A stretch of DNA of 64,000 nucleotides from Adhaeribacter swui. Lineage in GTDB: Bacteria; Bacteroidota; Bacteroidia; Cytophagales; Hymenobacteraceae. The DNA is taken from contig NZ_CP055156.1 of assembly GCF_014217805.1 (NCBI RefSeq), positions 5,772,585 to 5,836,584 on the forward strand. The letters are read 5' to 3'. Position numbers and translations under genes: made by a program. Shown one piece after another: positions 1,121-60,647 of this stretch. The notes below the pieces were generated by a model. That model saw nothing but the letters and a program-made list of their open reading frames with translations, was not told the DNA's origin and searched no databases. The number at the start of each line of letters is the position of its first letter. The first letter of the stretch is position 1.

Positions 1121-1267
1121 GTGGATTTTAGATTTTAGATTTTAGATGTTAGATATTGGATGTTAGACTAAAATAAAAGATATATATATTTTGACGGATC
1201 TCAATGAACTATATTATTGAAGTTAGTAAGCATCTTTTTTATAATCTAAGATCCAACATCCAAATTA
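1118..1267. repeat. Inverted arms of degenerate heptamer repeats (locus A)
   Basis: After the TAG stop at 1118-1120, six 7-base units (GATTTTA, GATGTTA, GATATTG types) run from 1124 to 1165. At the other end, 1240-1267, units TATAATC, TAAGATC, CAACATC and CAAATTA are the same heptamer family in reverse orientation. The last unit contains the stop codon of the convergent corA gene. The two arms could fold into a long imperfect hairpin spanning the whole gap. Confidence 0.8.
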
Positions 1268-4220: not shown

Positions 4221-4266
4221 AAAACAGAAGAGCCCGCTACAAGTAAGTAACGGGCTCTTCTGTTTT
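4221..4266. terminator. Perfect-stem bidirectional terminator
   Basis: AAAACAGAAGAGCCCG at 4221-4236 is exactly complementary to CGGGCTCTTCTGTTTT at 4251-4266, around a 14-base loop. A-run and T-run on opposite sides allow termination in either direction. It lies just after the permease stop and just before the small minus-strand gene's end. Confidence 0.9.
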
Positions 4267-4362
4267 ATAAAAATTTTAAAAAATTTACTTTTAAGGAATT
4301 ATACAACCAAACTCCGTTTAGGTAAACCAGGGAAATAAATAAGTGCCGATTAATCTGCTTAA

Positions 4363-6273: not shown

Positions 6274-6471
6274 GGTTAGATAGTAAGGTGGTAAGTTTTA
6301 GGTTATAAGTGGTAAGTATATTAATGCGTGTATGCAGCTAATCTCTTTCTATACTTAACGAACTTGCATTTTGCAGCATAGCCGAAGACTTAAATTACTA
6401 TTGCAAATATTAGCCGTTTTTACCAACCTAAAACGTAATACTTAAAACATACAACCTCCTACATCCTTCTA
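6274..6471. repeat. Inverted arms of degenerate heptamer repeats (locus B)
   Basis: Directly after the cmoA stop, 6274-6319 reads as period-7 units such as GGTTAGA, TAGTAAG, GTGGTAA and GTTTTAG. From about 6418 to 6471, just before the next start codon, the reverse complement again has period 7 with TTTTAAG, TATTACG, TTTTAGG and TTGGTAA. The arms therefore occupy both ends of the gap, including the ribosome-binding region of the methyltransferase gene. Confidence 0.78.
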
Positions 6472-9653: not shown

Positions 9654-9924
9654 TATTTTATAATATTTAATAATTAAATAGCCGTTTTATAAAATTATAA
9701 ACTTGGCTAAAATTTAAAAAATACCTAAAGCAAGAAGCATTTAGTAACTCCTCCGTTCAGGAACTTTACTAAACTTTTATGCTAGCTTCACCAAAAAAGC
9801 ACCTTTCTTTAAATTTTTGCGTAGAAAGCTTGAATTAATCCAGCTAATTTAAACAGTTAAACCTATTTCACCTCTAAGTAAAACTCCGCGTCGGCTTTTA
9901 AAAGCCCTACTATGGGTAATCAGT

Positions 9925-12900
9925 GTGCCATTGGTACTGGTTATTCTGTTGGTTATTGCCCTTCAAATTCCGGGTGTGCAACGGTTTGCCGCCCAAAAGG
10001 GCGCTAGTTATCTGGCTAAAACGCTAAACACCAAAGTTACCATCGGCGGCTTTACCACCGATTGGCGTAATAGCCTGGTTTTAAAAGAATTTTACCTCGA
10101 AGATCAAAAACGCGACACCCTGGTGTACGCCGGCCGTTTAGGCGTGGACATTAACATCTTCGGCTTGCTAAAAAACCAAATTAATGTGAGTTCGGTAAAG
10201 CTCGATGATGCCACCGTGCACATTAGTTCTACCATGCCGGATAGCGTAAACAACTACGACTTTATTATTGCGGCTTTTGCTGGCGACACTACCGCGGCTC
10301 CGGTGGATACCACGGCCAGTAAGCCTTTCGATTATAAAATAGGCACCATTCAGCTAAAGAATATTTTCTTTACCATGGCCGATCAGGTGGGAGGTAATGA
10401 TATTCGCACCCGCATTGGTTTTGTGTCGGCTAATATGGATGAATTTAATCCGGAAAAATCGTTGTACCACATCGGGGAAGTTACGCTTCAAAACAGTTAC
10501 GCTAACATTACCCAAAGCAAAGTAGTACCCGATACTACCACCACCGACTCTACCACTTTAGATCTGGGCCTGCGCCGGGTTAACCTGGAAAACATAAAAG
10601 TTAATTTTAACAACAAGGTAGCCGCGCAACGCATTATTCTGGATGTTAAAAAATCTGAACTGGGTGCGAATAAAATCGATTTAAAAAATGCCCGGATCGA
10701 CCTGAAAAACTTTGATTTAAACAATGCCTATTTTGCTTATTTCCAGGATAAAAACACGTCCCCGGATTCTTTAGCCATTAATCCGGCCGAAACCGCCGCT
10801 AAAATTGATAGCGCCGCCGAAGCTCAAGCTGGCGAACCGGTTAACTGGGTAGTAACACTCGGCGATTTAAACGTGGGCAATTTAAACGTGGACTTTGGTA
10901 ACTATAACACCCCGGAACAAAAAACCGGCATGGACTTTAACCACCTGTCCTTTAAAAACATTAACCTGGATTTAAACGACCTGTATTATAGCACTGACCG
11001 CATTACCGCCGATTTAAACCAGTTAACCTTACAAGAAAAAAGCGGTTTCCGGATAAATAATTTTGCCGCCAACATTAACGTAGATTCTACCCGCGCGGCT
11101 TTAACCAACCTGGATTTACAAACCAACGAAAGCCACTTGCGGCCAAGTTTTGCCTTGGGTTACCCTTCGTTAGCCACCATTGGCGAAGATATTAACCAGT
11201 TACGGCTTGACGCCGACTTAGAAAACTCGAAAATCGGCTTACAAGATATTTTATACTTTGTTCCTACCCTCGCGGAAAATCCATCTTTCCGGAAAATTAC
11301 CAATCGTTTTATTACCCTGGATGGTCGCTTGTTTGGCCGCATGGATAATTTAAACGCCGAAAGCTTGCGCTTGCGCGGTTTAACCGGCACCTCCATAAAC
11401 CTGACCGGTAATTTAAAGCAAATGTTGGATTTCGTGGACAAAGGCGCTTTGGACCTGCACGTGAACGAATTTACCACTACCCGCACCGATATTTTGGCTT
11501 TAGTACCGGCCGGTACCATCCCCAACACCATTTCGCTCCCAACGCGCATTTCGTTGGCGGGTGGCGTACGGGGAACCATGAAAAATTTAATGCTGAATAA
11601 TTTCCGGGCCAATGCTACGGGCGGTACTGCTCTGGCTTTAAGTGGCTCCATTCTAAATGCCACCGACCCCGACCGGCTGCGTATGAATTTACACATTCAA
11701 AATTTTGCCACCACCCGCAGTGCTTTAATGGCTTTATTACCCAAGGGCACTATTCCTACGTCTATTCAAATTCCCCAAAATTTAAAATTAGCCGGCAGTT
11801 TTAACGGTTCCCTGGAAAACTTTATTACCAACGCCAACATTACCACTTCTTTTGGCAATGGCCGGGTAGAAGCGCAGTTGCAACCTGGCGAGCGGTTTAA
11901 TGCTACGGCTCGTTTAATCCGGTTTAACGTGGGTCGCTTATTAAAACAAGAGCCTACTTTGGGTACAGTATCGGCTACGGCCACAGCTACAGGTAGCGGG
12001 TTTAGCCCCGATAAGATGCAAGCTGATTTTACGGCCACCGTGCAGGAAGCATTTTATAATAAGTACCGCTACGCCAACGTAAACCTGAAAGGCAACATCG
12101 ACCGCAACGTGTACGCCGTAACTGGTAACATGCAGGATTCTAACCTTTCGTTTAACCTGGATGGTAATTTTAATTTGCGCAACGAGAAAGTACCGGTATA
12201 CCGGGCCAACTTAAACATTGCCAACGCCAACTTAAAAGCCTTACACTTTTACCCTACCGATTTTCAACTACGGGGCATCATCAGCGCCGATTTAAGCGGT
12301 GCCTCGCCCGACGAAATGAAAGGTACTTTGGGCATTAGCGATTTATTGATGCGCCAGAACAAACGTAATTACCCCATCGATACTTTACAATTACAGTTAA
12401 ATAATGCCATTGGCCGAACCGACATCCGTTTGCAGTCTAATATTTTGTCGGGCTTTTTCCGGGGCAATAACAGCGTATCGGATTTACCGGTGGCCTTACA
12501 GAAATTTATTGACGGCTATTTTGATATTCAGGAAGCGCCTTTTGCCTCAACGGTGAACCTGCAGGATTTTGAGTTTGCTTTTAAGTTGCAGCGCTCCCGC
12601 GTGATCCGGGCTTTTGTACCCGATTTAAAACGCCTGCGCCCCAGTACTTTTAACGGTTCGTACAGCAGCGCCAACCAAAATTTGCGTGTAAACGCCAATG
12701 TTCCCGGCATGAAATACATGACCTATAACATCGACACGGCCCGGGTAAACATTAACAGCGACCGCAACAAAATTGCCTTAGCCCTAAATGTAATGGAGCT
12801 AGCCGACTCTTCCATGCAGGTCCGGAACATTGCCGTAACCACCGATTTGCAAAATAATACTTTGCGTACCCGCGCTCAGGTGTTAAACAACAACAGCCAG

Positions 12901-18923: not shown

Positions 18924-19050
18924 AGTTTTCTGATAATAGATGCTTTTTTAAATATTTAGTGATATTAAGTTTTGTTGTCAATAAAAATTAGCTGAATTCC
19001 CTGACTTAGCAATTATTTCTATTTAACATAAAATTTAAAATTTTAAAAAT

Positions 19051-19617
19051 TTACATTGCCCAAGCTTTGGTACCCGGCTCATAAGGCATACAACCAATAA
19101 AGCGGCCCGGCACCGGCAAGTAGCGCAAAGCTAGGGTAGCGCCGGGTTCCGAAGTGAAATAGCCCAATAATGTGAGCTGTTTTAAATTAGTAAAGTAATG
19201 ATTGGGTTGGCCTTCTGCTTTATCTTGCTGGTAATTTTTGGCTTCGCGATCCAGGCTAACAACTAACGTATGTTTTTGCGATGGCATTAAATCTTCGAAA
19301 GCCTTATTAAATTGGGTTTGGCTAATTTCCTGCAGCTTTTTTAAGCCTGCCGTAAACGTTTGCTGGTCTATTTCCTGGTAGCAATCGGTAACCATGGTTT
19401 TTATAAATGCACCTATGTTGGCTGCTTTGGCTCCCGGCGAAGACTTGGTAGTGGGCAATATAGTGTCGGCTACTTCATTCAGCAACGACACATCCTGAAT
19501 AGAGAATAGTTCATCTGTTGCGGTCGAACGCTGGCAGCCGGTTAAAAAAGCCTCGGCTCCTATAACCGCTGTACCCATTAAAAAAGCAACCGCCGATAAT
19601 GCTTCTCGTCTGTTCAT
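19051..19617 (-). CDS. Gluconate 2-dehydrogenase subunit 3-like protein
   Basis: 188 residues with a twin-arginine type leader (MNRREAL then a hydrophobic stretch ending FLTGC, which could also be a lipobox, Cys28). The body matches the small subunit that escorts GMC-type sugar dehydrogenases: LNEVADTILPTT near residue 45 and the C-terminal LTLLGYFTSEPGA and GCMPYEPGTKAWAM. In this family the small subunit carries the Tat signal and the large flavoprotein is exported with it. It lies 114 bases downstream of the GMC gene on the same strand, consistent with one complex in the periplasm. Confidence 0.88.
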   Translation of the reverse strand: MNRREALSAVAFLMGTAVIGAEAFLTGCQRSTATDELFSIQDVSLLNEVADTILPTTKSSPGAKAANIGAFIKTMVTDCYQEIDQQTFTAGLKKLQEISQTQFNKAFEDLMPSQKHTLVVSLDREAKNYQQDKAEGQPNHYFTNLKQLTLLGYFTSEPGATLALRYLPVPGRFIGCMPYEPGTKAWAM

Positions 19618-28386: not shown

Positions 28387-30831
28387 CTAATTCACCGGCC
28401 AGTTAACTTTAGGAAATTGCTTCAGTAAATCTGTCCGTAACGCCGGGTATTCTGCTTGCCAAAACGTGGCTAAATCTGTAACCGTAGCCAAGGGCTTTAA
28501 ATCCGGCGTAAGCAGTTGCAGCTCTACGGGCATTTCGCCGGCGTCTACAAGCGGCTGCTTTAGCCAATCCAACACATCCTGCAACCGGATTTCCAGTACG
28601 GGCGGGTTACCGTGGGCAAAGTATTGCAACTCCATCAGGGAACCATCGGATAAGGTTATTTCGGAAGGCACTAATTCTTCTAAACGCGCGCGTTGCTCCG
28701 GCGTTAAAAATTGTTGCAGAATGGGTAGCAAATCAATTTGAAATAAATCTTCGGGTACTTCCACATCAGTTAAATAAGGCCGCAGCCATTCGTAGTTGGT
28801 AATCAGCAAAGTGGGCGTGCTCACGTCGGGCCAAGCTTCCTGGGGCCGCCATTTCCGCAGACTTAGTACCCGGTTTTGCCATTGCGTAACGGCTTCCGAG
28901 AAGTTCAACAAGTCTTCGCCTTCGCGTTTTATAGCTTCCGAGATAGCGGCGGGTCGGTGTTTGTCGTTGGGGGTAGGCAAGGGTTTGCGTTGCAGCACAA
29001 TGGAGCCGATGCGTAAATCCTGAGAAGCCGTGAGTTCGCCATCGCTGGTGTCCCAGGTAATGGTTTCCTGTTTTTTAACGAGTGGCGCCAAATCTTTGGG
29101 GTTAAGCGGCGATGCCAGAAATATTTTACCCATACCCTGCCGCGCATCCAGGTTAGCCACGGCCAGCCAGGGATCGTGGGCCAGGTCATCGCGGTGGCCG
29201 GCCTGGGCGTACTTGCCGTTGGCGAGCTGGAACTGCGCGTTGTTTCCGGGGCGGGCGTAAGCAATGCGTTCGGGGTAGCAGTGCGCCAGCAGCACGCCGG
29301 TTTCATAGGGATCTAAAGTGCCGTTATCAGGAGCCAGCTCGAACATGCGGCGATACTGAGCGGCTATTTTTTCAATTTTCTTTAAACCTTTGCCACCCAC
29401 GTTTTCTTGCCGGAACCGGCGTAAGGCTTCAATGCGCAAATTAATATCAATACCTGAATCCCGGGGCAATGGGTCGCGCTCTTCCAGAATGGCAGCAATA
29501 TCGGTAGCTAAGGCTACTTGGTCTGACTCTTTAGCGGCCAGTAACATGTGGGCAATGCGCGGGTGCGTGGGCAAGGCGTGCACTTTTTTGCCGTGCTCCG
29601 CAATGCGGCCGTGCTCCAGGGCATTGAGTTGGTGCAGGGTTTCGGTGGCTTGCAACAAAGCAGCTTTGGGCGGCGGACTCAGCCAGGTAAGTTGGTTTAC
29701 ATCCATTATGCCCCACGAAGCCATGTCCAACACCAGTGAGGCTAGGTCGGCTTCCAGGATTTCGGGGGTACGATGTGGCGCGAGGCGGGCGTGGGTAGCT
29801 TCGGTCCAGAGGCGGTAAGCGGTTCCAGGTCCTAAACGACCAGCCCGACCAGCCCGTTGATCGGCGGCGTCTTTGCTGATGCGCACGGTTTCGAGGCGCG
29901 ACAATCCAGAGTTCGGATCGAAACGGCTCGTTTTGCCAAAGCCACAATCCACCACCACCGATACGCCCTCGATAGTTAAGCTGGTTTCGGCAATAGAGGT
30001 AGCCAGCACTACTTTGCGCTTGCCCTGGCGGTCGGGCATAATGGCAGCGTATTGCTTGTTGGGCGGTAACATGCCAAACAACGGATGAATCATTATATCG
30101 CGGGAGATTTGACGTCGCAGCAAACCTTCCACTTTTTTAATGTCGCCTTCGCCGGGCAAAAACACCAATACATCGCCGGTTTTTTCGCGGAGGGCGCGCT
30201 GCACGGTACGGGCCGTGAGTTCCGGTAACAGCGATTCGTCCAGGTCGCCGGTGTAAATAGTTTCTACGGGGTATTGCCGCCCCTGGCTTTGCACCACCGG
30301 CGCTTGCAGCAAACCCGACAGCGTAGGCATATCCAGCGTAGCCGACATCACGAGCAAACGTAAATCGGGACGGCGGGTGCGCTGGGCTTCGCGGCTAAGG
30401 GCCATGGCCACATCAGCGTGGATGCTGCGCTCGTGAAATTCATCGAAGATCACCAAACCTACGCTACTCAAAGCATTGTCGGTGTGGAGCATACGGGTTA
30501 AAATGCCTTCGGTTACTACCTCAATGCGGGTTTTATCAGAAATGCGGTTCTCGAAACGGATGCGGTACCCCACAGTTTGCCCTACTTCTTCGCCCAGCAA
30601 AAAGGCCATACGCTCGGCAATGGTGCGGGCCGCCAAACGCCGGGGCTCCAACATAATAATTTTCTGATTCGCTAACCAGGGTTCGTTTAGCAAAGCCAAT
30701 GGCAACAAGGTACTTTTTCCGGCACCCGGCGGAGCTTGTACAATCAGCGTGTTGCGGTCGGTGAGTTGGGCTTGTACGTCCGGGATTATTTCCCGAACAG
30801 GTAAATCGATGGTGAAGGGGTTAAAGGGCAA
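28387..30831 (-). CDS. hrpB: ATP-dependent helicase HrpB
   Basis: 814 residues, the usual HrpB length. DEAH-box superfamily-2 helicase: Walker A PPGAGKST (residues 34-41), LVIFDEFHERSIHADV (DEFH box), LLVMSATLDM (SAT motif), VVLATSIAETSLTIEGV and DQRAGRAGR (motif VI). These are followed by the HrpB-specific C-terminal region with TLLITNYEWLRPYL and LEIRLQDVLDWLKQP. Family role is in RNA or surface-related processes in a few bacteria and is otherwise undefined. Monocistronic, with very high GC relative to neighbours, and long overlapping frames on the other strand that are only shadows. Confidence 0.95.
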   Translation of the reverse strand: MPFNPFTIDLPVREIIPDVQAQLTDRNTLIVQAPPGAGKSTLLPLALLNEPWLANQKIIMLEPRRLAARTIAERMAFLLGEEVGQTVGYRIRFENRISDKTRIEVVTEGILTRMLHTDNALSSVGLVIFDEFHERSIHADVAMALSREAQRTRRPDLRLLVMSATLDMPTLSGLLQAPVVQSQGRQYPVETIYTGDLDESLLPELTARTVQRALREKTGDVLVFLPGEGDIKKVEGLLRRQISRDIMIHPLFGMLPPNKQYAAIMPDRQGKRKVVLATSIAETSLTIEGVSVVVDCGFGKTSRFDPNSGLSRLETVRISKDAADQRAGRAGRLGPGTAYRLWTEATHARLAPHRTPEILEADLASLVLDMASWGIMDVNQLTWLSPPPKAALLQATETLHQLNALEHGRIAEHGKKVHALPTHPRIAHMLLAAKESDQVALATDIAAILEERDPLPRDSGIDINLRIEALRRFRQENVGGKGLKKIEKIAAQYRRMFELAPDNGTLDPYETGVLLAHCYPERIAYARPGNNAQFQLANGKYAQAGHRDDLAHDPWLAVANLDARQGMGKIFLASPLNPKDLAPLVKKQETITWDTSDGELTASQDLRIGSIVLQRKPLPTPNDKHRPAAISEAIKREGEDLLNFSEAVTQWQNRVLSLRKWRPQEAWPDVSTPTLLITNYEWLRPYLTDVEVPEDLFQIDLLPILQQFLTPEQRARLEELVPSEITLSDGSLMELQYFAHGNPPVLEIRLQDVLDWLKQPLVDAGEMPVELQLLTPDLKPLATVTDLATFWQAEYPALRTDLLKQFPKVNWPVN

Positions 30832-33039: not shown

Positions 33040-35274
33040 ATGCAGATGGATTACCTGAAATTACTAAACGAATCACAAAGAGATGCCGTGCTACATACCG
33101 ATGGACCGGTAATGATTATAGCTGGCGCCGGCTCCGGTAAAACCCGCGTGTTAACCTACCGGATTGCCCACTTAATTAGCAAAGGCGTAGATCCTTTTAA
33201 TATTTTATCGCTAACTTTTACCAACAAAGCCGCTAAAGAAATGCGGCAGCGGATTGAAAAAGTAATTGGCAACGAAGCCAAAAACATCTGGATGGGCACG
33301 TTTCACTCGGTGTTTGCCAAAATTTTGCGATCCGAAGCGCCAAAAATTGGTTATCCCAGCAACTTTACCATTTACGATACCGACGACTCTAAAACCCTGA
33401 TCCGGAACATCGTAAAGGAAATGAACCTCGACGAAAAATTATATAAGCCTGGGATGGTGCTGGGCCGGATTTCGGCGGCTAAAAACAAATTGATTACTGT
33501 GGCGCAGTACCGGCAAGACCCTACCATTCAGGCCGACGACGAAGCGGCGATGCGTCCGAAGATTGGCGAAATTTACCAAGCGTACCAGAGTCGCTGCTTT
33601 AAGGCCGGCGCCATGGATTTCGACGATTTGTTGTTTAACACCAATGTTCTGTTTAAAGACCACGTAGATGCCCTGAACAAATACCAGAACATTTTTAAAT
33701 ATGTGATGGTGGATGAGTATCAGGACACCAACTACTCACAGTACCTGATTACCCGCAAACTGGCCGCTAAAAACCGTAATATTTGCGTGGTGGGTGATGA
33801 TGCTCAAAGTATTTACGCTTTCCGGGGAGCTGATATTCAGAATATTTTAAATTACGAACGCGATTATCCGGAGCTGGAAGTTTTTAAACTGGAGCAGAAT
33901 TACCGTTCTACCAAAAACATTGTGTACGCGGCCAATTCAGTAATTAAAAACAACAAAGCCCAGTTGCGCAAAGATGTTTTCACCGACAACGAGGAAGGTC
34001 CGCTGATTGAAGTAATAAAAGCCAACTCCGACAACGAAGAAGGCAAGCTGGTGGCCAACGCCATTTTTGAAGAAAAAATGAACAACCACCTCTCCTACGA
34101 AGATTTTGCGATTCTGTACCGCACCAACGCCCAAAGCCGGGCCATGGAAGAAGCCTTGCGGAAGATGAACATTAAATACCGTATTATCGGTGGCTTGTCA
34201 TTCTACCAACGCAAAGAAATTAAAGATTTAATTGCTTACCTGCGCCTCACCGTAAACCCCAACGACGAACAAGCTTTGCGCCGGGTAATTAATTACCCCA
34301 AACGCGGAATTGGCGATACAACGATTGAAAAAATTATTGTTTCGGCCGACGAATCCAATCATACCATTTGGGAAGTGGTGAGCAATGCTAAGAGCTTTTT
34401 AACGGGCCGGGTAGCTGCACCTATCGAAGATTTTGCGACTAAGATTAAAAGCTTTGCTATTATGGCCGAGCACCAGGATGCCTTTGAGGTAGCTAAGCAC
34501 ATTGCCAAACAATCCGGCATCGTGGAAGAATTGTACGCCGATAAATCCATTGAAGGCTTGGCACGTTACGAAAACATCCAGGAATTGCTCAACGGGATTA
34601 AAGAATTTGTGGATGACCCTGAGAAAGAAGACAAAAGCTTATCGGCCTTTCTACAAGACATTGCTTTAATAACCGACGCCGATAAACAACAAGATGATGG
34701 CAGCGAATATGTGACCATGATGACGATTCACTCGGCCAAAGGTCTGGAGTTCCGGAATGTGCACATTGTGGGCATGGAAGAAAACTTATTCCCGAGCCAG
34801 ATGATGCTGAATACCCGGGCTGATTTAGAAGAAGAACGCCGCCTGTTTTACGTAGCCATTACCCGCGCCGAGAAAAGACTGACCCTTTCCTACGCGACCA
34901 GCCGCTACCAATGGGGCAACTTGCGCGCCTGCGAAAAAAGTAGGTTTATCGACGAGATTGACCCCCGATTTTTAAATTTTCAGTACGGCGAAGGTCCGGG
35001 CGTTTTCGACAAAGTTTTAAAACGCAAAAGCAATCTGATTCCGGCTACGCCCGTTGTAAAGAAAGCAACTAACTACGTGCCCCCTGCCGATTTTGTACCC
35101 AGCGATACGGCCAACTTACAAGCCGGTATGCGCGTAGAACATCCTAAATTTGGCTTCGGCGTGGTTTCCAAAATGGATACCCAGGGCAATAGCACCAAAG
35201 CCATTATTGAGTTTGAAGAAGCCGGTGAAAAAACCTTACTCCTCAGCTTCGCCAAATTACGCATACATGAATAA
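33040..35274 (+). CDS. pcrA: UvrD/PcrA-type ATP-dependent DNA helicase
   Basis: 744 residues, superfamily-1A 3'-5' helicase used in repair and replication restart. The ATP site is IIAGAGSGKTRVLTYRI (Walker A, residues 26-42) and the DExx box is VMVDEYQDTNYSQ. Also present are VVGDDAQSIYAFRGA, LEQNYRST, MTIHSAKGLEF and VAITRAEKRL (motifs III-VI). The C-terminus has the PcrA tudor-like segment (MRVEHPKFGFGVV...). Translation may begin at the second Met, MDYLKLLNESQ, at 33046. The stop codon TAA is the first base block of a heptamer repeat that fills the gap before the next gene. Confidence 0.95.
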   Translation: MQMDYLKLLNESQRDAVLHTDGPVMIIAGAGSGKTRVLTYRIAHLISKGVDPFNILSLTFTNKAAKEMRQRIEKVIGNEAKNIWMGTFHSVFAKILRSEAPKIGYPSNFTIYDTDDSKTLIRNIVKEMNLDEKLYKPGMVLGRISAAKNKLITVAQYRQDPTIQADDEAAMRPKIGEIYQAYQSRCFKAGAMDFDDLLFNTNVLFKDHVDALNKYQNIFKYVMVDEYQDTNYSQYLITRKLAAKNRNICVVGDDAQSIYAFRGADIQNILNYERDYPELEVFKLEQNYRSTKNIVYAANSVIKNNKAQLRKDVFTDNEEGPLIEVIKANSDNEEGKLVANAIFEEKMNNHLSYEDFAILYRTNAQSRAMEEALRKMNIKYRIIGGLSFYQRKEIKDLIAYLRLTVNPNDEQALRRVINYPKRGIGDTTIEKIIVSADESNHTIWEVVSNAKSFLTGRVAAPIEDFATKIKSFAIMAEHQDAFEVAKHIAKQSGIVEELYADKSIEGLARYENIQELLNGIKEFVDDPEKEDKSLSAFLQDIALITDADKQQDDGSEYVTMMTIHSAKGLEFRNVHIVGMEENLFPSQMMLNTRADLEEERRLFYVAITRAEKRLTLSYATSRYQWGNLRACEKSRFIDEIDPRFLNFQYGEGPGVFDKVLKRKSNLIPATPVVKKATNYVPPADFVPSDTANLQAGMRVEHPKFGFGVVSKMDTQGNSTKAIIEFEEAGEKTLLLSFAKLRIHE

Positions 35275-35372
35275 GTATCAGGTAACAGGTAGCAAGTATC
35301 AAGACTTAATAATCAAACATACAACAAAGCTAATTTTACAATCCTGATACTTGCTACCTGCTACCTGATACT
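35274..35372. repeat. Inverted arms of heptamer repeats (locus C, best example)
   Basis: Left arm 35274-35301 has four exact 7-base units (AGTATCA, GGTAACA, GGTAGCA, AGTATCA), the first sharing a base with the pcrA stop codon. Right arm 35345-35372 is the reverse complement of the same four units in order, with one mismatch in 28 bases. The 43-base interior is A/T-rich. The two arms can form a 28-bp hairpin with period 7 inside each arm. Confidence 0.88.
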
Positions 35373-35396
35373 AAATAAAATCCTTACCTTTACCCT

Positions 35397-36064: not shown

Positions 36065-36312
36065 GTTGCCGGTTGTTCGTTACTCGTTGTTCGTATCAAT
36101 TTTTTAAATAATATTTTCGCAAAAAGACTTAAAAGTTGTTTGTACAGACATAAACAACGGCACGGCTTATTGGCATTGTTTTCACGATAAACTTTAGCGG
36201 AAGTCCTTAACTTACATCTCTACTATAAAATTTCGGAGTTTAAGTTCGTGTTTTAGGCAATCATTTGCCTGAAGTTTCTTACTTATAACTCTTAACTTAT
36301 AACTTTTAACTC
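36065..36312. repeat. Heptamer-repeat arms and a stem-loop before murA (locus D)
   Basis: Left, 36065-36099: GTTGCCG, GTTGTTC, GTTACTC, GTTGTTC, GTATCAA at exact period 7. Right, 36281-36312: ACTTATA, ACTCTTA, ACTTATA, ACTTTTA, ACTC at period 7, ending six bases before the murA ATG. Here the two arms use different words. Between them, 36136-36160, lies a GTTTGT...ATAAAC stem-loop of the GTG-GACAC family. Confidence 0.72.
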
Positions 36313-36318
36313 ATTTCA

Positions 36319-41917: not shown

Positions 41918-43115
41918 TTTGATTCCTAAAAGCTACATCACCCTGCAGGGCTTCGGCTCTATTTCGCCTTTGGGCGCTACCCCGGTCGAAGTAAACAGCG
42001 CCTACCTGGGGGCCGCTTCGCGGATAAATTTTAAAAGTTTTAAAAATTTATCCGCGCCGGCAGCGGCATTATTTCCTGCAACAGAAGAACAAATAACCGC
42101 TCTCCAGCAGGAAAATAAAATGTACAAAAACCTGGACCGCACAGTGCTCCTGGCAATGTACGCGGCCCGGCAAGCCATTGCGCAGGCAGGTTGGCAAACT
42201 GAGAACGAGATAGCCGTTAACATTGGCTCTTCGCGCGGTGCTACCGGTTTAACCGAACAATACCTGGAAGATTTCCGGACGAACCCAGCACAACTATCTT
42301 CCCAAACCTCGCCCACCACTACTTTAGGCAATATCTCGAGTTGGGTAGCCAACGATTTACAAGCCGAAGGCCCCGTGATCAGTCACTCGGTTACGTGCAG
42401 TACCGCTTTGCAGGCCATTGCCAACGGGTTTGCCTGGCTGCAATCCAATATGGCAATGCGTTTTTTAGCGGGTGCCGCCGAAGCGCCACTTACGCCTTTT
42501 ACCGTGGCTCAAATGCAAGCCATCGGAATTTACGCCAAAGAACCGGTCCACAATTACTGGTGCCGCCCCTTAAATCTGGAAAAGCATAATACGTTTGTGT
42601 TGGGCGAAGGAGCCGCTTTGTTTGCTTTGGAACGGCAACCCGAGCACCAATTAACGCCTGATTCTATTGTGCTGGAGGCTATTGGTTTTGGCTTTGAAAA
42701 AATAACAAGTAAAACGGGTATTTCGCGAGAGGGGTTAAATTTTCAAAAAGCAATCCGGAATGTCATTCAGCAGTTACCGGCAAACGACTCAAATATTGAT
42801 GCGGTGGTATTACACGCCCCCGGTACAGCCATAGGCGATGCCGCCGAAATAACTGCTATAAAATCAGTTTTTGGAGAGAATATACCTTTGCTCACTTCCA
42901 ATAAATTGCTCATTGGTCATACTTTAGGCGCTTCGGCCGCTTTAAGCCTGGAGTACGCCGTGTGGATTTTAGAAAATCAAAAATTTTTAAAATTTCCATA
43001 CCCGGTGTTTACACTAGAGCAGCAAAATCCCAAACAAATCCGGCGAATTCTATTATTAGCCGCTGGGTTCGGCGGCAACGCCTCCGCTTTAATTATCTGT
43101 AAAGGAAATGAATAG
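41904..43115 (+). CDS. Beta-ketoacyl synthase (KAS I/II-like) in biotin operon
   Basis: 403 residues with the complete thiolase-fold ketosynthase triad: Cys165 (HSVTCSTALQAI), His304 (VVLHAPGTAIGD) and His339 (KLLIGHTLGASAAL). Start is TTG (41904, or a second TTG at 41919), overlapping the bioA stop. Housekeeping FabF genes sit in the fatty-acid operon, so a divergent KAS as the fifth bio gene suggests a role in making the pimeloyl chain. No bioC/bioH equivalent is seen here. The stop codon lies inside the first heptamer-repeat unit of locus E. The assignment to pimelate synthesis is inference; a secondary-metabolite role is possible. Confidence 0.85.
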   Translation: MQKTDLIPKSYITLQGFGSISPLGATPVEVNSAYLGAASRINFKSFKNLSAPAAALFPATEEQITALQQENKMYKNLDRTVLLAMYAARQAIAQAGWQTENEIAVNIGSSRGATGLTEQYLEDFRTNPAQLSSQTSPTTTLGNISSWVANDLQAEGPVISHSVTCSTALQAIANGFAWLQSNMAMRFLAGAAEAPLTPFTVAQMQAIGIYAKEPVHNYWCRPLNLEKHNTFVLGEGAALFALERQPEHQLTPDSIVLEAIGFGFEKITSKTGISREGLNFQKAIRNVIQQLPANDSNIDAVVLHAPGTAIGDAAEITAIKSVFGENIPLLTSNKLLIGHTLGASAALSLEYAVWILENQKFLKFPYPVFTLEQQNPKQIRRILLLAAGFGGNASALIICKGNE

Positions 43116-43546
43116 TCGATAGTTGTTAGTCAATAATCGATAGTCCACAGAAATTAACTCACGTTAAATAGAATTTTTTAAAATTCTGACAACAGGCACA
43201 GAACGAGTTTAGTAGTAAATACGCGGGGAATGGGCGCTAACGCTAGTTTTAAACGCTATCTTTTAAGGGAACTTATATAATACCCGAATTTTAAAGATTT
43301 CTTGGATTTGCTTTTATCGTACTACGGTGGGATGTATGAACTAATACTGATGAAATACGCTGCTTTGGGTAAGGTTTATTTGCCGTTGTGTACCGTTAGC
43401 TGTGTCTGTTTGCGGTAGGTTGTGTATGTTCGCCATTGGTTGTGTCTTCACAACCAATTTCTAAAAATTAATAAATGCAATTCAAAACCTAAATTATACT
43501 AACCCCGTCGAAACTTTCCAACCTTTCAACTTTCAAACCTTCCAAC
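43112..43546. repeat. Period-7 left arm, hairpin and period-8 right arm (locus E)
   Basis: Left arm 43112-43146: ATAGTCG, ATAGTTG, TTAGTCA, ATAATCG, ATAGTCC, the first unit including the TAG stop of the ketosynthase. Right arm 43507-43546: GTCGAAAC, TTTCCAAC, CTTTCAAC, TTTCAAAC, CTTCCAAC, exact period 8, ending six bases before the stop of the convergent gene. The arms use different words, and between them lie hairpin repeats (43385-43457). Confidence 0.8.
43385..43457 (-). repeat. Hairpins of the GTG-GACAC family, tandem copies
   Basis: The last copy is a perfect 9-bp stem, TTGGTTGTG (43436-43444) with CACAACCAA (43449-43457), loop TCTT. Two degraded copies of the left stem lie in tandem upstream at about 20-base spacing (TTAGCTGTGTC and TAGGTTGTGTA). 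Confidence 0.65.
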
Positions 43547-43552
43547 TACCAC

Positions 43553-50850: not shown

Positions 50851-51639
50851 ATGGCTGATATAACTACTCCGGCAAAACATAAGAAAAACACCTTATTTTT
50901 AATTTTATGCAGCATTTTTCTGGCTAACGCCTTATTGGCCGAGTTAATTGGGGTAAAAATATTTTCGGCGGAAGCCATATTTGGTTTACCGGGCGCCCAG
51001 ATTCCGGTACTCTTTGATTTTAAGCTCGATTTTAATTTAACGGCCGGGGTAGTAATCTGGCCCATTGTGTTTATCAGTACCGATATTATTAATGAATATT
51101 TCGGGAAAGCCGGGGTTAAAAAAATCAGCATCATTACGGTTCTGCTTATTTTGTACATGTTTTTGATTATTTCGGTAATCAGTGCTTTGCCGCCGGCTCC
51201 TTTTTGGCTGGATGTAAACAGCAAAGATGCCGCCGGCAATCCTTTTAATATTAACTACGCTTTTAACAGCATTTTTCGCCAGAGTTCGGGCATTATCATC
51301 GGGTCGGTAACGGCTTTTTTAATTTCACAGTTTTTAGATGCTTCGGTGTTTCATTGGCTACGGCGGGTTACCGGCAGCCGCAAAATCTGGTTACGCGCCA
51401 CGGGCTCCACGCTGGTATCGCAGTTAATTGATTCTCTGGTAGTGTTATTTGTGGCTTTTTACCTGTTTGGTAACTGGCCTTTAAAACAAGTGTTAGCCGT
51501 GGCTACCATTAACTACATTTACAAATTTGTAGTGGCCGTGGGGCTTACCCCTCTCCTGTACCTGGCTCATTTCGCCATTGATAACTACTTAGGCCAAAAC
51601 CTCTCCGAGCAAATCCAAAATGAGGCGGTAGAGATTTAG
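50851..51639 (+). CDS. Queuosine precursor transporter (VUT/DUF165)
   Basis: 262 residues, six to eight helices. NTLFLILCSIFLANALLAELIGVKIFS and IVFISTDIINEYFGKAGVKK are the signature segments of the YhhQ/VUT family, which imports preQ0/preQ1 for queuosine biosynthesis. A possible TATCTTCG -7 box lies at 50818-50825. The stop codon G is the first base of a period-8 repeat. No queuosine enzyme gene is nearby. Confidence 0.88.
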   Translation: MADITTPAKHKKNTLFLILCSIFLANALLAELIGVKIFSAEAIFGLPGAQIPVLFDFKLDFNLTAGVVIWPIVFISTDIINEYFGKAGVKKISIITVLLILYMFLIISVISALPPAPFWLDVNSKDAAGNPFNINYAFNSIFRQSSGIIIGSVTAFLISQFLDASVFHWLRRVTGSRKIWLRATGSTLVSQLIDSLVVLFVAFYLFGNWPLKQVLAVATINYIYKFVVAVGLTPLLYLAHFAIDNYLGQNLSEQIQNEAVEI

Positions 51640-51820
51640 TTGGAAAGTTTAAAAGTTAAAAGGTTAGAAAGTTGGTTAGATTTTTAAATTTATAATTTTT
51701 AGGCTATTGCCAATTTCTATTTAGGATATACATTTTTAGTTTTAATGTTAGCTTGAATACAACTATATCAACTGCGTAACCTTCTAACTTTCCAACCTTT
51801 CAACCTTCCAACTAATTAAC
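51639..51820. repeat. Inverted arms of degenerate octamer repeats (locus F)
   Basis: Left arm from 51639: GTTGGAAA, GTTTAAAA, GTTAAAAG, GTTAGAAA, then GTTGG, exact period 8, starting in the stop codon. Right arm 51778-51820 is the same family reversed: CTTCTAAC, TTTCCAAC, CTTTCAAC, CTTCCAAC, TAATTAAC, also exact period 8. An A/T-rich interior of about 105 bases separates them. Confidence 0.85.
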
Positions 51821-54666: not shown

Positions 54667-55063
54667 GGGCAGTGTGAGGACACTGCCAACGGGCGGGATG
54701 AAGCAGCCTATTATATTCTCCCAAATACGCGGTGCTGCTTTTGTGCAATCACAAGTAACTTTCATTTTTGGCGCCCTTGTTTCTATCAAGTGTCGCTTTT
54801 TATGTCTCCGTTTGTTGTTACTTGTGTTTAGTGCTATCGTTAATGTCTTCACAAACAACTTTCAAGTGCTAGTCACAAGAACACTCACCTTGGCCGTTGC
54901 GATTAGTTGCGATGCGACTGTTTTTTTCTCCACAAACAGCTTTACATTATTTCTAGTGCCGTCGTTTGTCTCTTCGCAAACAATCTCCAGACGGGCAGCG
55001 TGAAAACGGTTATTGGCTTAACGGCATTATTTCACTGCCGCAGTTTGTGTCTTCACAAACTGC
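54667..55063. repeat. Cluster of GTG-GACAC hairpins, inverted at the two ends
   Basis: Left end, plus orientation: GGCAGTGT, GAGG loop, ACACTGCC. Right end, minus orientation: GCAGTTTGTG (55040-55049), TCTT loop, CACAAACTGC (55054-55063), a perfect 10-bp stem. Degraded copies near 54840, 54918 and 54963 keep the TCTTCACAAAC or TCTCCACAAAC core. Confidence 0.7.
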
Positions 55064-55099
55064 TTTACTGTTATTCACAAATATTTAAAAAAAGTAAAA

Positions 55100-55140
55100 A
55101 GTCTGGCTTCTAGTGTCTAGCTACTAGCGTCTAATTCTAC
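55100..55140 (-). repeat. Solo arm of degenerate heptamer repeats
   Basis: CTTCTAG, TGTCTAG, CTACTAG, CGTCTAA, TTCTACC: exact period 7, ending at the stop of the RraA gene that follows. No partner arm found near 54467, so half of the element may have been lost. Confidence 0.7.
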
Positions 55141-57183: not shown

Positions 57184-57337
57184 TATCCTGAAAATTTAAA
57201 AATTTAAGAAAATGTAACTCAGTTGTAATATGCTTTGCAATAGGCTGCTGTTAAATTGTTTAGGCTATAAAACAACAGGCAAATTTTGCCGGGTAGCGCC
57301 CAAACCAGCGCAGCAGAAAATTTAAAATTTTAAAAAT

Positions 57338-57769
57338 TTATGGCACCCTAAAAGCCTGGCGGGCCAGTAATTTCCATTTTCCTTTTTGCTTTTGCCAAAC
57401 CAGTAAATTCCGGATTTTGATTTCGCCGGGAGTGCCGTTGTTGGTTATTTTGGCGTTAAAGGCATGCCGCACCAAAGCCGTATTACCCGCCACCCGGATG
57501 GTTTGATCTTGTAAATCAATAATATTAAACTTAATCGGGTCGTGGAGTACGCCATTCACAAAAGCAGCTTTGTCTTCTACTTTCCCGCTGGAGTGCCCGT
57601 AACTCAGCTCCTCAGCCGTAATCGATTCCAGCAAATTTTTATCGGCGGTGGTTAAGGCATTTTTAAAAATTTCTACGGCTTCGGCTACTTGCTTTTCTTC
57701 GGCGGTTTGTGCCCAACTACCCCAGGAAAGTCCTACCCAAAGGAGGCACAAGACATATATTTTTTTCAT
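57338..57769 (-). CDS. Exported NTF2-like (DUF4440-type) protein
   Basis: 143 residues, Sec signal peptide (to GSWAQ). The mature domain is a cone-shaped NTF2/SnoaL fold: EAVEIFKNALTTADKNLLESITAEELSYGHSSG, then TIRVAGNTALVRHAFNAKI and KIRNLLVWQKQKGKWKLLARQAFR. Such domains serve as small enzymes (isomerases, dehydratases) or ligand binders. Position in the island between the BASS carrier and RraA2 suggests a role in the same pathway, but no catalytic residue set is conclusive. Confidence 0.85.
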   Translation of the reverse strand: MKKIYVLCLLWVGLSWGSWAQTAEEKQVAEAVEIFKNALTTADKNLLESITAEELSYGHSSGKVEDKAAFVNGVLHDPIKFNIIDLQDQTIRVAGNTALVRHAFNAKITNNGTPGEIKIRNLLVWQKQKGKWKLLARQAFRVP

Positions 57770-60572: not shown

Positions 60573-60647
60573 AAAGTTTTAAATAGTTAGGCGTAATGAA
60601 AATAAAATTTTAAAAAATTAAAGTTTAGAAGTTTAAGCAGGGTTCTT

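Follow-up and report, generated by a model that had tools for sequence, protein, structure and literature searches.

The 23S rRNA intervening sequences (IVS) of Leptospira and Coxiella hold a gene for a four-helix-bundle protein, S23p or intervening sequence protein (IVP), between complementary ends; in Coxiella, two or three GACAGAT heptamers precede the S23 gene and the ends are cut by RNase III (PMC4990558; papers cited by PMC number are drawn on through excerpts, to which all statements about them refer). IVP stands hereafter for the S23/four-helix-bundle family, PF05635/TIGR02436, "23S rRNA intervening sequence protein", whose genes are also reported within cas loci (PMC3936711) and mentioned in rRNA insertions (PMC11270868). 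The present work deals with a stretch of 64,000 nucleotides of Adhaeribacter swui (the window; bases 5772585-5836584 of contig 3 of the 6.2-Mb source genome, G000), in whose intergenic gaps pairs of inverted arms made of tandem 7- or 8-base words are found, among them a dyad between a uvrD/pcrA-type gene and a DUF4290 gene. We consider it quite probable that the window dyads are the end arms of selfish IVP elements, built as arm, IVP gene and inverted arm and mostly devoid of the gene. Whereas the IVS sit in rRNA helices, these elements are intergenic, both of their arms consist of drifting 7- or 8-base words, and gene-less dyads are far commoner than the gene.

Intergenic heptamers have been described under other words. 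In Xanthomonas and Nostoc, GGGNATC heptamers lie at gene ends, with the G strand after stops and the antisense before starts; inverted pairs number 70 and 75 in two Xanthomonas genomes, are few in Nostoc and absent from its plasmids (PMC4692102). Location at gene ends and inverted pairing are shared with the arms studied here, whereas GGGNATC repeats have one G-rich word per group, are read as G-quadruplexes, generally show no tie to insertion sequences or transposons, and are not linked in that source to S23 genes or mobile elements (PMC4692102). TAACTGA heptamers stand directly before start codons in Beggiatoaceae, cyanobacteria and Bacteroidetes; they are read as possible translational regulator sites, with one inverted case, but seen from the gap the word becomes TCAGTTA and, by our own deduction, would obey the same inward rule as here (PMC4679880). 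Heptamer intergenic repeats, inverted pairs included, are already published (PMC4692102, PMC4679880). No paper joining heptamer arms with IVP genes outside rRNA was found in the literature searched, as far as the excerpts go. A sequence-only reading of the window had been unable to name a described element with these properties; a name can now be given, since the arms are like those around S23/four-helix-bundle genes.

Two further systems offer partial likenesses. The short tandemly repeated repetitive (STRR) sequences of heterocystous cyanobacteria are tandem heptanucleotides between genes, described as repeats and not as element ends, and eukaryotic foldback elements possess long inverted ends of short tandem repeats, but differ from the arms here in their hosts, their proteins and their greater length.

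Inverted arms around IVP genes

The sequence-only reading had reported at 35274-35372 an arm of four heptads followed by its inverted copy. This arrangement was found again, with a best ungapped inverted match of 28/30 (29/32 with a laxer score).

35275 to 35303, forward strand: left arm of the uvrD-DUF4290 dyad, four heptads of the word GTAKCAR (GTATCAG GTAACAG GTAGCAA GTATCAA), beginning right after the uvrD stop codon
35345 to 35371, reverse strand: right arm, inverted copy (read inverted, GTATCAG GTAGCAG GTAGCAA GTATCA), ending 25 bp before the DUF4290 start codon

DNA resembling this dyad gave 13 matches in G000 (its own two included) and 20 in the sister genome G006 (G003 and G005 are likewise congeneric sisters; G001 and G002 are further genomes compared). 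Across 20 such places the loops look unrelated, their length ranging from about 14 to 500 bp, and at L208/L211 (L numbers are locus labels) the loop holds a complete four-helix-bundle gene (PF05635, E 6.5e-39, with a TIGR02436 match). Its protein has one solved relative, 2GSC (XCC0516; E 1.1e-21), with five chains, and a solved IVP relative is described as a ring of five (PMC4990558, citing Lin et al. 2006). Avd of diversity-generating retroelements, also a four-helix protein, resembles L211 weakly (E 3.6e-5, short of the curated cut-off); unlike those retroelements, the IVP distribution requires no reverse transcriptase.

G000 has three IVP genes, and all three lie between inverted arms with one word each, GTAKCAR, RGTTGCA and AATTAGA; the AATTAGA pair was overlooked by the array filter but is plain on inspection and scores 30/33. 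In these three full copies, the IVP gene stands alone between the arms and the copies are located between protein-coding frames, not in rRNA helices. The 170-bp flanks on both sides of IVP genes were then compared, a gene being taken as bracketed when the inverted match score was at least 16. Complementary ends surrounded 79 of 102 non-redundant loci in the host order (18 direct matches; 4.2% of mixed pairs), 17 of 29 loci Bacteroidota-wide (6 direct; 3.6%) and 14 of 16 plasmid loci, 15 cyanobacterial and 1 from Azospirillum (1 direct; 12.9%). Among control genes 270-480 bp long, taken solely from G000 and three sisters, the count was 5 of 201 (6 direct; 2.4%). Arms bracket IVP genes in three phyla. 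The period of the 79 bracketed host-order loci, duplicates still included, is 7 in 55, 8 in 22 and neither in 2. The host-order sample comes from 127 matches listed, about 25 of which, many of them fragments, were left out; its 104 loci became 102 once duplicates were removed, and L224 was excluded before counting for its short flank. The 29 Bacteroidota-wide loci are those returned from the search matches. The plasmid sample covers 16 of 28 records, Riemerella and others being among those left out; L392 had its gene boundaries placed from its match, and L382 shows no clear arms.

On cyanobacterial plasmids, IVP genes were seen between cas genes (L378, L383, L390), in agreement with PMC3936711. 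A second single-gene family, GxxExxY (TIGR04256/PF13366), is likewise bracketed by inverted arms (L350-L376; G000 sample A, 134553-135230), with a score of at least 16 in 15 of the 24 loci examined out of 27 and a direct match also in 10 of the 24. GxxExxY arms are mostly of a different type, with GGATT repeats at 8-9 spacing.

Arm word and IVP vary together

Unit length clusters on a tree of 97 IVPs (104 loci less the duplicates L255 and L258 and five short domains), where period 8 needs 9 changes vs a shuffled mean of 21.0 and none of 500 shuffles was as low, although the tree has few columns and many weak forks, and near-copies favour clustering. Arm and IVP similarity were at first compared over all pairs of 92 IVPs whose arms are clear (rho 0.14, 0/500), but that test was discarded as confounded by shared loci, 11 of 11 checked high-identity IVP pairs having orthologous flanks. 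Because many high-identity IVPs sit at a shared locus, 125 loci (133 before duplicates and short domains were dropped) were grouped by both flanking genes, resulting in 19 shared-locus clusters (71 loci) and 54 singletons. For the 131 same-locus pairs with arms of at least 13 on both sides, arm similarity was correlated with IVP identity (rho 0.69; partial 0.68) vs 0.20 with flank identity, and none of 1000 within-locus arm permutations (10 clusters of at least 3 loci, 125 pairs) reached the observed value. Between loci, an arm score of at least 14 was reached by 46 of 3842 pairs with IVPs less than 30% identical vs 38 of 199 with IVPs 50-60% identical. Since arm similarity tracks IVP identity both at and between loci, the protein and its ends form a unit, and the arm word follows the IVP rather than the flanking genes.

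At the three G000 sites, sisters carrying the G000 word have IVPs 74-90% identical to those of G000, vs 52-61% for sisters with other words, G002 at the GTAKCAR site being the one exception. At the AATTAGA site, the G000 IVP shares 85% identity with its counterpart at this locus in another genus (L235) and only 61% with that of the congeneric G005, despite G005 flanking DNA being 86-88% identical to that of G000. In one gap shared by G003, G005 and G006, the IVPs are 22-25% identical and the arms different, while the flanking protein fragments are 88-95% identical; unlike IVPs in one sister gap reflect replacement or independent insertion at one site. The G000 gap matching the L280 site of G003 was not found within the G000 stretch compared.

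Dyads without a gene

Genes were called with a simple codon-usage script, and the gaps between called genes were analyzed in the window and in a 964-kb set made of the window and five further G000 stretches. The excess at lags 7 and 8 that the sequence-only reading had proposed to look for in intergenic DNA is present: at lag 7, z reaches 5.6 for the window and 11.2 for 400 kb elsewhere in G000, and at lag 8 the respective values are 3.8 and 9.7. Arrays scoring at least 10 numbered 6 vs 0.2 expected in the window at each of these periods, and in the 400 kb 23 vs 1.3 at period 7, 28 vs 1.5 at period 8 and 16 vs 1.5 at period 9. The remaining periods between 2 and 20 were near or below background, save for 14 and 16, which are doubles, and for slight surpluses in the 400 kb at periods 10 (4 vs 0.6), 17 (4 vs 1.1) and 18 (3 vs 0.6). 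Arrays were also enriched in the Rufibacter group (9 vs 0.2 at period 7, 9 vs 0.4 at period 8), more weakly in Sphingobacteriaceae (13 vs 1.8 and 2 vs 2.4), and at the Pontibacter loci (51 vs 0.4 and 55 vs 1.0), which are all centred on one gene, so that most of their arrays are copies of each other by orthology and do not count as independent. Most detected arrays have 3-5 units, with medians of 4.6 (period 7) and 4.3 (period 8).

The two ends of a gap are inverted copies far above chance. Among 486 gaps of at least 90 bp in the 964 kb, the ends matched in inverted orientation at a score of at least 16 in 21 gaps, some of which are not heptad arrays, vs 1.0 per set when ends were taken from different gaps, with 3 direct matches; at a score of at least 20, there were 15 within gaps, 0.0 between gaps and 1 direct. 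The rule of an exact period 7 proved too narrow, the heptads being real but the units measuring 7 or 8 bases. Words are indeed specific to a locus, as had been proposed, yet they recur among loci and genera, and the dyads with their drifting units are not plain microsatellites.

Two classes of arrays are mixed in these gaps, A/T-only arrays with periods 8-9 and G-containing heptads or octads abutting genes. In the 964 kb, 68 of 200 arrays have a G+C content of at least 20%, and the other 132 are A/T-rich, with a strand bias mostly tied and few in either direction. For the 49 G-containing arrays at most 30 bp from a gene, the G-rich strand points inward in 45 and outward in none, with 4 ties; 15 are at starts, and 30 plus the 4 ties at stops. 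The A/T-only arrays (TTTTTAAAA) are common in window gaps, e.g., 4265-4287, 19030-19053 and 57317-57340, mostly without G/C strand bias, and are apparently a separate phenomenon.

The uvrD-DUF4290 dyad is followed, after the DUF4290 gene, by an EPSP-synthase-family gene, by inference probably murA, and the nearest named relatives of the DUF4290 protein occur in Pontibacter, Botryobacter, Rufibacter, Sabulibacter and Adhaeribacter. As suggested beforehand, orthologous gaps were compared: the two-arm design is kept in three congeneric sisters with one word per genome in both arms, GTAKCAR in G000 and G006, TAGATGT/TGGATAT in G003 and TAGACGC in G005. At 40 named loci, read by eye, arms were seen in all except L021, L024, L025 and L036; their words were AATTANR, CGTAKCA, AAGACRY, AGTTGNT and the octamers GAGTGATT, with GGATT-type arms at L003 and weak arms at some loci (L007, L016, L018). 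Some named loci and G genomes are apparently the same organism. In the uvrD gaps of the Rufibacter group, a terminator-like hairpin (GTTTTAGGCCT...AGGCCTAAAAC and variants) was noticed within the dyad loop (L020, L022, L028, L030, L032, near 9850-9950).

A gene-less dyad can arise by deletion. An IVP gene with a different word occupies the RGTTGCA site in G001. G002 shares the left arm of G001 there and also has a right arm, but all that remains of the gene between its arms is the last 11 codons, KYIKDY(Q/R)NKIK, and the stop; the G002 dyad is a deletion product. Besides, arrays without a gene have words similar to those found in IVP arms: gap-array words matched host-order IVP arms at a score of at least 16 in 77 of 102 cases in the genus of the window and 92 of 109 in Pontibacter/Rufibacter, vs 21 and 21 after column permutation (averaged over three permutations per set) and 6 and 10 when the words were reverse-complemented.

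The other arms of the window are listed below, with scores against IVP arms and the maximum of 20 column permutations.

1124 to 1167, forward strand: left arm, heptads GATTTTA/GATGTTA; resembles the L264 IVP arm (27; permuted maximum 25)
1237 to 1264, reverse strand: right arm, which pairs at 23/29 with the preceding one to form the 1.1-kb dyad; heptads GGATGTT/GGATCTT; no IVP-arm match above permutations
6275 to 6322, forward strand: left arm, heptads GTNNTAN
6425 to 6467, reverse strand: right arm of the 6.3-kb dyad, 23/32 with the left arm, 4 bp short of a start codon
36065 to 36094, forward strand: left arm, heptads GTTGTTC; L263 IVP arm (17; permuted maximum 16)
36281 to 36314, reverse strand: right arm, heptads AGTTANR, present in three sister species; L285 IVP arm (23; permuted maximum 22)
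43112 to 43150, forward strand: single heptad arm, word TAGTCRA, in a gap without matching partner; no IVP-arm match above permutations
43512 to 43547, reverse strand: octamer arm at the far end of the 43112 gap, AGTTGGAA/GGTTTGAA; L250 IVP arm (29; permuted maximum 24)
51638 to 51677, forward strand: left octamer arm, AGTTGGAA/AGTTTAAA; L250 IVP arm (35; permuted maximum 21)
51777 to 51812, reverse strand: right octamer arm, GTTGGAAG/GTTGAAAG
55101 to 55133, reverse strand: single heptad arm TAGACGC at the edge of a 674-bp gap; L256 IVP arm (20; permuted maximum 17)

The same architecture had been claimed at four of these places. It holds at 1118-1267 and 6274-6471, but at 36065-36312 the heptads of the two arms share only GTT and are not inverted copies, and at 43112-43146 there is a lone heptad arm, the other end of the gap being an octamer arm with a different word. 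The octamer dyad at 51638-51812 and the single arm at 55101-55133 had been passed over. The gap with the latter arm measures 674 bp in G000 but 128 bp, without such an array, in the sister G003; for the gap 60573-60647, longer in G005 and G006, the comparison gave no clean junction.

Loops in some gaps carry words like TTTGTGAAGACACAA in both orientations (window 43380-43450 and 54700-55080; G000 sample A, 29085-29264) and may represent a further family of dispersed hairpins. In G000 sample D, an inverted pair at 99164-99429 (CCCCTCCGCCTGCGGCACCTCCCC...) is GC-rich, has no short period and probably belongs to a different repeat family.

Competing explanations and significance

If the window dyads are ends of IVP elements, each arm would usually comprise 3-5 copies of a 7- or 8-base word with its G-rich strand inward, arm and IVP would be inherited or exchanged together as one unit, and the window dyads would be forms without the gene, either deletion products or gene-less copies. 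The IVP ring may recognize the arms, perhaps with one unit per subunit, in the way that TRAP binds RNA repeats one unit per subunit; five units per ring, as a simple count, is compatible with the array medians, yet is no test of it. Such recognition might allow the element to persist, to be exchanged and to occupy gaps, movement being likewise supposed.

It is unlikely that the arms are slippage microsatellites turned into hairpins and matched by template switching, on which IVP genes merely landed. Template switching between inverted arms is described (PMC8794818, PMC8604942), and the arms agree within a gap while the word differs between species, but the near-gene orientation is never reversed, word and period follow the IVP lineage, between loci too, and IVPs of the order are bracketed far more often than control genes. 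Tandem 7-base units in intergenic gaps are also what defines heptamer simple sequence repeats and STRR, whose units are near-identical and freely oriented; here the units drift and 45 of the 49 near-gene arrays face inward. Little weight is given to the dyads being RNA hairpins, either terminators or RNase III sites, whose pairing is selected and for which IVP would be an RNA-binding regulator. The region 35270-35396 indeed folds strongly (-43.5 kcal/mol, z -12.25, equalled by none of 200 shuffles), 34 of the 49 near-gene G-containing arrays are at stop codons, array-poor divergent gaps in G000 (4 arrays in 95 gaps vs 37 in 157 ++ gaps) fit this idea, and rRNA elements of the IVP family are cut in the stem by RNase III (PMC4990558). 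Against it, G.U mismatches between the arms are not in excess over A.C ones (tandem 110 vs 133, convergent 12 vs 11, divergent 22 vs 16; IVP arms 154 vs 143), and selection on an RNA stem was rejected on this ground. Pontibacter divergent gaps, which have no transcript end, are about as array-rich as others (29/99 vs 54/170 ++ gaps), the Rufibacter loops contain a separate terminator-like hairpin, and a role as intrinsic terminator was discarded given that arrays also occur in divergent gaps, many in Pontibacter and few in G000. A known RNA family was likewise rejected, given that the window has no Rfam match at gathering score, and the arms lie between called genes.

It is very improbable that the dyads are miniature inverted-repeat transposable elements (MITEs) moved by an ordinary transposase with the IVP as passenger. 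Like MITEs, the window dyads have inverted ends and dispersed copies, one word occurring at many loci with loops unrelated by eye, and they lack a gene of their own, PF05635/TIGR02436 proteins included. However, their arms are shared with IVP genes and not with a transposase, as judged from the three full copies without a genome-wide transposase search; the IVP gene is alone between the arms of these copies, no target duplication was seen in the gaps compared, and the arm word follows the IVP.

Several observations weigh against the window dyads being ends of IVP elements. The inverted flank score is below 16 in 23 of 102 IVPs of the order and 12 of 29 of the phylum, the plasmid locus L378 carries long repeats on both sides but directly oriented, the control genes were drawn from a single genus, and G-containing arrays more than 30 bp from genes (n = 19) point inward in 12 cases and outward in 7. 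A scan of 3.3 Mb covering L001-L190 and the window yielded no IVP gene while recovering three positive controls, and no IVP remnant was detected in the loops of 106 dyad gaps or in 1614 other gaps; hence, only a single locus documents the deletion route. The excess of 19 inverted pairs in 964 kb, some with unclean heptads, over 3 IVPs in 6.2 Mb needs explaining. Of the 13 window arms, no more than 7 score higher against the IVP-arm library than each of their 20 permuted versions. The uvrD-DUF4290 arms match L211 best, at 16 and 18 (after permutation, means of 12.3 and 12.4 and maxima of 19 and 18), perhaps staying within the permuted maximum because the L211 arms are short. In the gaps compared, neither a target-site duplication nor a clean empty site could be established. 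Many IVP sites are old, 71 of 125 loci having their site in common with another genome, and G002 combines a similar word at the GTAKCAR site with an IVP only 60% identical to that of G000. We know of no catalytic site in IVPs, and an RVT_1 match is absent from 18 of the 30 genomes with IVPs. There is therefore no need for a resident reverse transcriptase, which was rejected as the mover; as RNA pairing is also apparently unselected, a DNA-level selfish element is favoured.

On a broader scale, the balance tips slightly toward heptamer or octamer arms and IVP genes being one selfish or homing-like element class present in several phyla. Its pentameric ring protein would evolve jointly with the end repeats, each lineage using a word of its own. 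The heptamers of cyanobacteria, Xanthomonas, Beggiatoaceae and Bacteroidota would then be gene-less relics, and alleles would replace one another at fixed gaps across genera. Intergenic heptamers and S23 genes are both widespread and both without known function in the literature covered. If true, this would account for words that are free under a fixed period, orientation and placement, as well as for IVP genes inside operons such as cas loci. If both are one element, the two puzzles would become one question, namely whether the ring protein reads its own repeats and how units swap in a gap.

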